Shown here one piece after another: positions 12,269-13,569 of a stretch of 13,569 nucleotides of DNA. Location of the stretch: NCBI GenBank assembly GCA_017987615.1, contig JAGNTI010000017.1:1-13569 (forward strand), written 5' to 3'. The notes under the pieces are model-generated. The model was given only the letters and a program-made list of their open reading frames with translations. It was not told where the DNA came from and did not search any database. Within the stretch, counting starts at the first letter, position 1. Every line of letters begins with the position of its first letter. The translations under genes and the position numbers were made by a program. The stretch is from Sediminibacterium sp. (GTDB lineage Bacteria; Bacteroidota; Bacteroidia; Chitinophagales; Chitinophagaceae).

Positions 12269-13192
12269 ATGTCTTTAGTAGTTGTAGGTTCGATGGCCTT
12301 TGATGCAATCGAAACACCTTTTGGAAAAAGTGATAGAATTATTGGTGGTGCGGGTACTTATATTGCCTGGTGCGCTTCTAATTTTACGCCTGTAAAACAA
12401 ATTTCTGTTGTTGGTGGTGATTTTCCGGAATCGGAACTTGCTGCATTAACTGCACGTGGAGTAGATTTAGAAGGTGTTCAAATCAAAAAAGACGAAAAAA
12501 CATTTTTCTGGAGTGGTCGTTACCACATGGATATGAATTCACGTGACACCCTCGAAACACAATTAAATGTGTTAGAAAACTTTGTGCCAGTTGTGCCAGA
12601 TAGTTTTCAGGATTGCGAATTTTTGATGCTTGGTAATTTAGTGCCTAGCGTACAAAGCAGCGTGATCAAGCAATTGAAAAACCGTCCAAAACTTATCGTC
12701 ATGGATACCATGAACTTTTGGATGGAAATTATGATGGATGATTTATTACACACCATTAGCCTTGTGGATGTATTGATGGTAAATGATAGTGAAGCGCGTC
12801 AATTAAGTGGTGAGTATAGCCTTGTAAAAGCGGCTAAAAAAATCATGGCCATGGGTCCTAAATATTTGATCATTAAAAAAGGAGAGCACGGTGCGCTTTT
12901 ATTCCACGAAGACCAAGTGTTTTTTGCACCAGCACTTCCATTAGAAGAAGTATTTGATCCAACCGGCGCTGGTGATACCTTTGCGGGTGGCTTTATTGGA
13001 CATATCGTTCGCACCAAAGACATTTCTTTCGAAAACATGAAAACCGCTATTATAGTGGGTTCTGCCATGGCTTCTTATTGTGTAGAAAAATTTGGTACCG
13101 AGCGTTTGAGAGAAATTAGCAAAGCAGATATTAGCGACCGAATCTCAGAATTTGTAGACCTAGTAAACTTTGACATTAAGTTAGTAGTATAA
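12269..13192 (+). CDS. PfkB-family (ribokinase-like) sugar/nucleoside kinase
   Basis: ATP-dependent kinase of the ribokinase/PfkB superfamily, 307 residues. The N-terminal substrate half has VVGSMAFDAI and GGAGTYIAW (26-34); the C-terminal half carries the family signature DPTGAGDTFAGGF (230-242), where Asp236 is the catalytic base and GAG forms the anion hole. MVNDSEARQLSG (170-181), the N-D/E-x-E region, and KKGEHGALLF (203-212) are also typical. The substrate-side GG motif is GGAGTYIA rather than the GGxxxN of ribokinase, so the substrate (sugar, sugar phosphate or nucleoside) cannot be assigned. The gene is divergent from tetR, so it may be under that regulator. No terminator follows within 140 nt; transcripts could run into the asd leader. 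Confidence 0.93.
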   Translation: MSLVVVGSMAFDAIETPFGKSDRIIGGAGTYIAWCASNFTPVKQISVVGGDFPESELAALTARGVDLEGVQIKKDEKTFFWSGRYHMDMNSRDTLETQLNVLENFVPVVPDSFQDCEFLMLGNLVPSVQSSVIKQLKNRPKLIVMDTMNFWMEIMMDDLLHTISLVDVLMVNDSEARQLSGEYSLVKAAKKIMAMGPKYLIIKKGEHGALLFHEDQVFFAPALPLEEVFDPTGAGDTFAGGFIGHIVRTKDISFENMKTAIIVGSAMASYCVEKFGTERLREISKADISDRISEFVDLVNFDIKLVV

Positions 13193-13207
13193 CCTAATTT
13201 AAAATAT

Positions 13208-13239
13208 TTTGGCGTTGTATTCAAATGCCCCTAATTTTA
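13208..13239 (+). promoter_or_regulatory. Candidate promoter of the asd leader
   Basis: TTTG at 13208-13211 (-33) and TAATTTTA at 13232-13239 (-7, one mismatch to TAnnTTTG at the last base) are separated by exactly 20 nt, the best-spaced pair in the window. Predicted transcription start is near 13243, so the RNA would begin about 6 nt before the ATG of the short lysine-rich ORF. Confidence 0.5.
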
Positions 13240-13248
13240 CATCCGAAC

Positions 13249-13293
13249 ATGAGAACATCGAAACATTCAAAACGTATTAAGAAACCACTCTAA
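13249..13293 (+). CDS. Putative leader peptide of asd, lysine-rich, 14 residues
   Basis: The short ORF ATG to TAA encodes MRTSKHSKRIKKPL: four of its 14 residues are lysine (codons at 13261, 13270, 13279 and 13282), including a Lys-Lys pair four codons before the stop. It begins just after the predicted transcription start, ends 4 nt before the antiterminator segment and is followed by an intrinsic terminator ahead of asd, whose product lies in the lysine/threonine/methionine pathway. That arrangement is the classic form of a leader peptide in ribosome-mediated attenuation. Short length means the ORF alone proves nothing; the case rests on its position and composition. Confidence 0.45.
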   Translation: MRTSKHSKRIKKPL

Positions 13294-13366
13294 CCAGGGA
13301 GGTGCTTCGTTTTGTAATGTATAAACATACGCAAGAGGCCTTCCCAAATGGGAGGGCCTTTTTTTT
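13286..13366 (+). promoter_or_regulatory. Putative attenuator upstream of asd (antiterminator/terminator switch)
   Basis: Three mutually exclusive pairings can be drawn. Region 1 (13286-13291) can pair with 13298-13304 across the leader stop codon. Region 2 (13297-13308, GGGAGGTGCTTC) can pair with 13335-13345 (GAGGCCTTCCC) in an 11-bp helix with one bulged T13303 and two G-T wobbles, enclosing a small GTAT/ATAC hairpin. That pairing uses the left arm of the terminator (13336-13346), so it would prevent termination. A ribosome waiting at the last lysine codons would leave region 2 free; one reaching the stop codon would cover it. Drawn by eye, without energy calculation. Confidence 0.45.
13336..13366 (+). 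terminator. Intrinsic terminator in the asd leader
   Basis: Arms 13336-13346 (AGGCCTTCCCA) and 13349-13359 (TGGGAGGGCCT) form an 11-bp stem with one T-G wobble and an AA loop, followed by a run of eight T (13359-13366). It ends 27 nt before the asd ATG and lies 144 nt after the pfkB stop, so it is better placed to control asd than simply to end pfkB, though it could do both. Confidence 0.88.
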
Positions 13367-13393
13367 AAACCATAAGAAACAAAAACTAAAAAA

Positions 13394-13569
13394 ATGAAAG
13401 TAGCAGTAGTAGGGGCAACTGGCCTGGTAGGTACAAAAATGTTACAAGTACTTGCCGAACGTAATTTTCCTGTCACTGAAATTGTACCGGTAGCATCAGA
13501 AAGATCTGTTGGTAAAGAAGTTCAATTTAAAGGGAAAGCGTATAAGGTAGTAAGTATGGAAGACGGTAT
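13394..13569 (+). CDS. asd: Aspartate-semialdehyde dehydrogenase, 3' partial
   Basis: NADPH-dependent reduction of aspartyl-4-phosphate to aspartate 4-semialdehyde, the branch-point precursor of lysine/diaminopimelate, threonine, isoleucine and methionine. Only the first 58 codons lie in the window. They show the Rossmann dinucleotide motif GATGLVG (7-13) right after the first strand MKVAVVG, and the ASERSVGK segment (34-41), which in this family contacts the NADP phosphate. Catalytic Cys and His lie beyond the window edge. The ATG at 13394 follows an A-rich stretch with no Shine-Dalgarno sequence. The gene lies directly behind an intrinsic terminator, without a visible promoter in the 27-nt gap, so expression probably depends on read-through. 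Confidence 0.93.
   Translation, partial: MKVAVVGATGLVGTKMLQVLAERNFPVTEIVPVASERSVGKEVQFKGKAYKVVSMEDG

Follow-up and report, generated by a model that had tools for sequence, protein, structure and literature searches.

A candidate lysine-codon attenuator upstream of asd in Sediminibacterium and other Bacteroidia

The Phe_leader (RF01859) and Thr_leader (RF00506) families, together with the his and trp leaders of enterobacteria, are the familiar models of transcription attenuation by a translated leader; in the first two, an ORF bearing codons for the end product, hairpins of the 1:2, 2:3 and 3:4 type and an intrinsic terminator precede the first gene. Bacteroid-trp (RF01692) is, according to its Rfam description, a tryptophan peptide leader RNA of Bacteroidetes. 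Lysine-responsive control of transcription of lysine genes is exerted by the lysine riboswitch (L box), which binds lysine, and by the Lys T-box, which binds uncharged tRNA directly, neither of them using a leader peptide. To our knowledge, a lysine attenuator of the leader-peptide type has not been described, and none was found for Bacteroidota in the literature searched, which lay mostly outside subscription journals. In Sinorhizobium meliloti, a possible leader peptide has been proposed in SEP5, a short ORF that has six Thr codons and three for Lys, lies in the 5' UTR of an "aspartate dehydrogenase" gene and is conserved only in Sinorhizobium (PMC10117765). In Flavobacterium psychrophilum, clues for leader-peptide attenuation before amino-acid operons have been presented, with elements at hisG and pheA listed; the main text of that report, from which the word lysine is absent, names no asd, dapA or lysine leader (PMC9723704).

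The leader analysed here, located upstream of asd in a Sediminibacterium contig and in many relatives, resembles Phe_leader and Thr_leader in its general architecture and differs from them in its lysine codons and in having asd and dapA as targets. It shares phylum and leader-peptide character with Bacteroid-trp, which concerns tryptophan instead. Control of lysine genes would be common to it and to the L box and the Lys T-box, whereas the leader ORF is found only here. SEP5, as far as its published description was consulted, belongs to a different phylum, carries mainly Thr codons and is presented with no RNA structure; the F. psychrophilum elements, as listed in the consulted text, come likewise from Bacteroidota, but asd, dapA and lysine are targets only of the present leader. 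At curated cut-offs no Rfam family, the lysine riboswitch included, matched the window (the whole stretch of 13,569 nucleotides that was analysed) or four related loci. Sub-threshold scores were 29.0 for Phe_leader (cut-off 55), 17.1 for Thr_leader (55) and 21.4 for Bacteroid-trp (49); Phe_leader being the best of 12 weak matches, with the other two among them, these scores fit the architecture without membership. On comparative sequence grounds, we consider it very probable that this leader acts as a ribosome-mediated attenuator of transcription whose control codons are those for lysine. Its parts, at the end of the window, are the following:

12269-13192: pfkB-family kinase gene (Pfam PF00294), ending 5' of the leader
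13207-13212 and 13232-13239, + strand: promoter-like pair TTTTGG / TAATTTTA, 9 nt 5' of the leader ATG
13249-13293, + strand: leader ORF of 14 codons, four of them Lys, encoding MRTSKHSKRIKKPL and ending in a stop codon
13261-13263, 13270-13272 and 13279-13284, + strand: Lys codons 5, 8 and 11 plus 12, inside the leader ORF
13263-13291, + strand: segment 1, left side of hairpin 1:2, within the ORF
13296-13320, + strand: segment 2, forming the right side of hairpin 1:2 and, in its initial part, the antiterminator left arm
13297-13308, + strand: antiterminator left arm, core GGGAGG at 13297-13302
13333-13345, + strand: segment 3, terminator left arm, of which 13335-13345 doubles as antiterminator right arm
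13350-13366, + strand: segment 4, terminator right arm (13350-13362) plus U run
13394-13569, + strand: asd, aspartate-semialdehyde dehydrogenase, first 58 codons, then contig end

The leader ORF reads ATG AGA ACA TCG AAA CAT TCA AAA CGT ATT AAG AAA CCA CTC TAA, so that the 14 codons with four Lys reported in the initial annotation can be read directly at 13249-13293. The intrinsic terminator that had been placed 27 nt before asd is indeed there, with a stem (13333-13345/13350-13362) slightly longer than originally given; it lies about 140 nt past the pfkB stop codon. The 27 nt separating it from asd are AT-rich, and a sigma-70 scan of them was empty, the sigma-70 model being one that does not cover Bacteroidota promoters. 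The 58 asd codons present score 69.5 bits with NF011456 and 63.8 bits with TIGR01296, below the full-length cut-offs because the gene is truncated at the contig end. The promoter-like pair had also been noticed before, with a spacer of 20 nt; the pair stands, but its spacer measures 19 nt. A loose pattern, used without chance control, recovered a similar pair in 72 of the 92 related leaders scanned, with a spacer of 19 in 66 of these 72 and a box ending 6-9 nt before codon 1 in 69. The promoter type assigned to the TTTTGG/TAATTTTA pair is presumptive. Given so short a distance between box and codon 1, the leader mRNA could itself be nearly leaderless.

Short Lys-rich ORFs are not rare by themselves: the window and five related loci contain 531 ORFs that start with ATG and are 10-22 codons long, and 28 of these have at least four Lys codons; it is therefore conservation that lifts the leader above chance. 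The relatives searched numbered 150, 90 of them from the genus of the window. Of the 82 regions upstream of asd examined in this genus, the window included, 61 contain a leader core with its stop at the same place; a leader was called where 5 of 11 positions, the stop being counted among the 11, agreed with a consensus that bears Lys, and the row of L047 was discarded as a false match. Codon 1 is ATG in 58 of the 61, two have another start (L039, L059) and one is cut by the contig end (L078). Another four regions (L010, L027, L035, L097), read by eye, have an 18-codon leader; the ORF is four codons longer in these, Pro13 and the usual stop codon are gone, and the end falls behind segment 2 as in many other genera. 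The remaining regions comprise one cut by its contig (L030), one at a second asd-like gene (L068) and 15 without leader. In two of these 15 (L038, L047) the leader ORF and the promoter region are gone and the terminator is kept between the kinase gene and asd; in the others (L051, L056, L058, L061, L062, L067, L071, L073, L075, L083, L085, L091, L095) the whole leader is missing, asd follows directly after the pfkB-type gene, and control seems to have been lost in these 13 loci.

A pattern scan of GTDB species genomes returned 97 stretches, 82 of them with an asd start within 700 nt; the other 15 are six leader-like stretches cut by a contig or locus end, eight chance matches and one (L184) that is probably chance. 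The rows dropped were the eight chance matches (L132, L148, L170, L202, L203, L204, L218 and L219), then L082, L168, L184 and L190, in which the terminator end was not found, and finally L039 and L213, which had been cut at a wrong end. The pattern demanded Lys codons, hence it is uninformative on Lys invariance; the later family and class scans were based on models. Contigs end at or near the asd leader in L142, L168 and L187, where assembly or strain mixture is possible; the same applies to genome G073, in which a second leader (L307) with Lys8 changed to Thr lies near a contig end.

Model R1 was built from same-genus leaders and pattern-scan contigs, mostly from Sediminibacterium or unclassified Chitinophagaceae/Bacteroidetes, including one contig labelled Comamonas that is probably mis-binned. 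It found matches in 120 of 396 genomes of the order (E <= 0.01), many of them in other genera of the family; some weak matches are due to chance, and low-scoring ones such as L301, L304, L306, L311-L313 and L315 look like chance terminators. The places fetched within the family yielded 53 Lys leaders, 48 before asd and five before dapA, a set that omits L375 (a Phe/Tyr leader at pheA) and L348 (the same place as L359). An R1-type leader model extended once (R2) was applied to 195 family genomes, 183 of which have an asd match. Among the asd genes listed for these genomes, 107 of 150 have an R2 match at most 500 nt upstream; no match was obtained within that distance at the other 43, of which strict filters may have lost some. 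These 107 are among 130 R2 matches listed outside the window, the other 23 including some at further asd genes (e.g. in G274 and G379) and five at dapA. The class-wide R2 scan (395 genomes) gave 18 genomes with a match. Twelve of the matches fall outside the family, and every one of them lies before asd; their ORFs carry 4-7 Lys (for instance MKMICKNKKHNMKRFQQGKGQ and MMIKKIKCAKKLFR, each closed by a stop codon), and these outside-family peptides share little except Lys. Thus, a short Lys-rich ORF is kept in most of the relatives examined, in the genus regions as well as in these 12 (among which L385 and L386 appear identical here, and L388 departs in frame from related leaders through a single base within a run of A).

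The core of the 53 family leaders can be written KHTKRxKK, with Lys11 in 53/53, Lys8 in 49/53, Lys5 in 48/53 and Lys12 in 43/53, counts that are approximate because the core finder prefers Lys and shifts by one codon where one is missing (L320, L326, L331). The ORFs contain 3-6 Lys each, and AAA and AAG interchange at the Lys codons, codon 8 being AAA in 18 and AAG in 31 of the family loci. Thr occupies codon 7 in 44 of the 53 and codon 10 in 26; codon 7 is Ser in the window and Ile in some relatives. Within the genus His6 is conserved, as is Pro13 with the use of all four Pro codons, according to a codon table of 100 sequences that still includes seven chance matches. Across the family, codons 13 and 14 vary freely, unlike Lys11. 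The position of the leader stop codon varies too, lying before or behind segment 2, and many relatives read on through segment 2.

The RNA from 13243 to 13366 folds at -39.4 kcal/mol (z -4.25, none of 200 shuffles as low), its lowest fold combining a hairpin of the ORF with 13296-13320 and the terminator 13333-13345/13350-13362; the long hairpin 1:2 is an additional feature that the initial annotation did not describe. Conservation of these helices was assessed in several alignments. In the first (A1), with 56 leaders of 58 representatives, segments 2-4 were out of register and RNAalifold recovered the terminator only; therefore, 31 better-registered rows were chosen for a MAFFT alignment (A2), which is not structure-fitted and leaves out the row of the window itself. 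No weight is put on alignment A3 because three weak extra matches remain in it, and A4 contains the 53 family loci aligned with model R1, being independent for the antiterminator and leaning towards 1:2 and 3:4. In A2, 91.3% of cells are paired in hairpin 1:2 plus terminator, against at most 56.4% when the partners are slid, and 64 cells are changed on both sides against 24.8 in shuffles (0/500 as high); the number of pair types is unexceptional in the same alignment, being reached by 79 of 500 shuffles. In A4, itself fitted to this structure, 149 cells are changed on both sides against 48.2 in shuffles (0/500), and 23 of 26 pairs show such changes. The terminator helix is paired in 92.6% of cells in A2 and 95.5% in A4. 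At codon 9, CGT/CGC (Arg) or CAA (Gln) is matched by ACG or TTG, respectively, in segment 2, and its columns in A2 are paired in 31/31 (26:62) and 26/31 (27:61) rows. Covariation also links codon 14 to the bases that follow the stop codon (99 of 146 cells paired in 73 sequences, the top of 2000 shuffles being 86), with which it forms a small hairpin holding the stop codon in its loop; the partners are CGC-GCG, CTA-TAG and CTC-GAG, and CTC also occurs with AGG and with CGG, each of which leaves one of the three positions unpaired. As the partner bases change along, the Leu/Arg exchange at this codon seems to be about RNA pairing, not about the peptide.

The complementarity of 13297-13308 to the terminator left arm, already pointed out in the initial annotation, was recovered by folding, as the RNA ending at 13345 adopts the antiterminator 13297-13308/13335-13345, although by its energy this fold does not stand out (z -1.41, 20 of 200 shuffles as low). 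The helix, GGAAGG:CCTTCC, is nearly invariant, with 88.4% of cells paired in A4 against at most 68.9% when slid. It gives no covariation signal, since 472 of 500 shuffles reach the observed pairing in A2 and 98 of 500 in A4, and A2 cannot test it because the choice of rows fixed segment 2 as GGAAGG. Of the two helices that the initial annotation had proposed to test for compensatory changes, the terminator has them in A2 and A4 and the antiterminator hardly varies. Concerted changes do occur in a few leaders: segments 2, 3 and 4 are jointly changed to GGGGC, GCCCC and GGGGC in L021, L026 and L134, and to GGGAG, CTCCC and GGAGGG in L035 and L097. Across 156 leaders, segments 2 and 3 pair with a score of 17.7 in their native combination, compared with 11.2 when segment 2 is shuffled, and the outside-family leaders score 17.0 with their own segment 3 against 14.1-14.3 with that of the family groups. 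The GGGGC group gains nothing from its own segment 3 (15.5 native against 13.7-16.7 with other groups), its segment 2 scoring 16.2-16.7 with segment 3 of some of them. Swapping over the whole set (92 sequences) gave 16.9 native against 16.2 swapped for the antiterminator and 16.3 against 16.2 for 1:2, a test that is almost free of signal because both helices are so conserved. Support for the putative antiterminator is therefore drawn from its near-invariance and from the few concerted changes, not from covariation statistics.

In the mechanism that we propose, transcription would start a few bases before the leader ATG. With charged Lys-tRNA at hand, a translating ribosome would pass Lys11-Lys12 to the end of the ORF and cover segment 2 (13297 onward), so that segments 3 and 4 would pair and RNA polymerase would stop 27 nt before asd. 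Under a shortage of charged Lys-tRNA, the ribosome would halt at Lys11 or Lys12 and cover the left side of hairpin 1:2, codons 13-14 included; the just-emerged segment 2 would then pair with segment 3, the terminator would come too late and asd would be transcribed. In the absence of translation, hairpin 1:2 and the terminator are expected together and transcription would stop. By a motif rule, segment 2 begins 7-14 nt past Lys12 in the family loci; given the size of the ribosome footprint, this distance would leave segment 2 outside a ribosome stalled there and inside one that has moved on. We simulated ribosomes by holding all RNA up to and under the ribosome unpaired. When the RNA ends at segment 3, an antiterminator of -20.2 kcal/mol forms if the ribosome is at Lys11 or Lys12, and -8.3 kcal/mol is left if it is at the stop codon; the antiterminator is still preferred with no ribosome (-20.3) and likewise with a ribosome at Lys5 or Lys8. 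In the full-length RNA, the terminator (-22.6 alone) is part of the lowest-energy fold at every ribosome position tested. As the energies separate only the stop-codon state and the terminator wins at full length, the remaining switch must be kinetic.

Other amino-acid genes carry leaders of related design. The same Lys leader precedes dapA, the first gene proper to lysine and diaminopimelate, in five family loci (L355, L356, L357, L359, L367); the product of L355 scores 296.1 bits against a cut-off of 206.15, and the other four were judged by their N-termini. In six same-genus genomes examined, dapA has no such Lys leader, and some Lys-rich frames upstream of lysA (L263, L265) are not followed by a T run. 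A Lys-containing ORF encoding MMIYKHKSSKRFLPKW lies before lysA in a different family of this order (L373; single weak match, 45.9 bits). R1 also found leaders with His codons before hisG in nine same-genus loci, e.g. MLLNNHIHHFHLLSNR, the identity of hisG being tested for L314. These His leaders (L296-L300, L302, L303, L305, L314) are of the MxxxNHTHHxHLLS type with a similar hairpin layout, and some same-genus genomes that have one lack the asd leader. Four of six genomes examined in the genus have a Thr/Ile-rich ORF, such as MSQKQLHIISTATTATLFTTAITIITTL, ahead of the large aspartokinase gene (L243, by eye, L244, L245, L248), and a Phe/Tyr-rich ORF read by eye, MIQQTSFGFFSFYYFWYQE, with a terminator precedes a pheA-like gene in the same family (L375). 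Across these genes the control codons agree with the pathway under control, which is what ribosome-mediated attenuation demands, although the lack of a Lys leader at dapA in the six same-genus genomes speaks against it.

Because Thr7 is conserved as well, signals other than lysine may also be read. As asd serves both the lysine and the threonine branches, the attenuator could sense the two amino acids together, with Thr7 and partly Thr10 (at the family frequencies given above) as further control codons. We regard this as unlikely, since codon 7 lies within segment 1 of hairpin 1:2 and may be conserved for the sake of structure, Ser is found at this codon in the window and Ile in some relatives, dapA, not needed for threonine, has the same leader in five loci, and the aspartokinase gene has a Thr/Ile-rich ORF of its own in most of the same-genus genomes examined. 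Far less credible is an arrest peptide, in which the nascent KHTKRxKKP would stall the ribosome on a small molecule and not on empty codons; conservation of His6 and of Pro13, encoded by all four Pro codons, would suit it at the level of the genus, but several conserved non-Lys positions lie in paired segments, codons 13 and 14 are free to change across the family while Lys11 is not, little but Lys is common to the peptides outside the family, and the hisG counterpart has His in place of Lys.

The strong RNA structure might also suggest a riboswitch or protein-binding leader with an incidental ORF, to which we assign a very slight probability, as Rfam matches at curated cut-offs are absent from the window and four related loci, AAA and AAG exchange at the Lys codons, and other families retain ORFs rich in Lys although the sequences differ. 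A reading in which the element only terminates the upstream pfkB-type gene and the intervening ORF is due to chance, as its distance of about 140 nt from the pfkB stop and the 28 comparable ORFs among 531 would allow, is largely contradicted by the conserved ORF, the alternative helices and the occurrence of the element before dapA, and can hardly be entertained. A chance ORF, the pfkB terminator alone and a riboswitch were rejected on these grounds.

Returning to the lysine-codon attenuator, its proposed control would extend to asd, a branch enzyme, and in some genomes to dapA as well, across a large part of one family and in representatives of other families of Bacteroidia. It thereby offers a rule for lysine control in this group that can be put to the test, and the His-codon counterpart in the same genus is a natural codon-swap control. 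More tentatively, and with the odds somewhat against it, one may speculate on a single old, modular attenuator scaffold of Bacteroidia with an almost leaderless ORF, whose specificity would have been set by swaps of control codons (Lys at asd, dapA and perhaps lysA, His at hisG, possibly Phe/Tyr at pheA) and which would have spread by duplication and codon replacement. If this were true, such a scaffold would give the class a shared control of amino-acid synthesis by tRNA charging.
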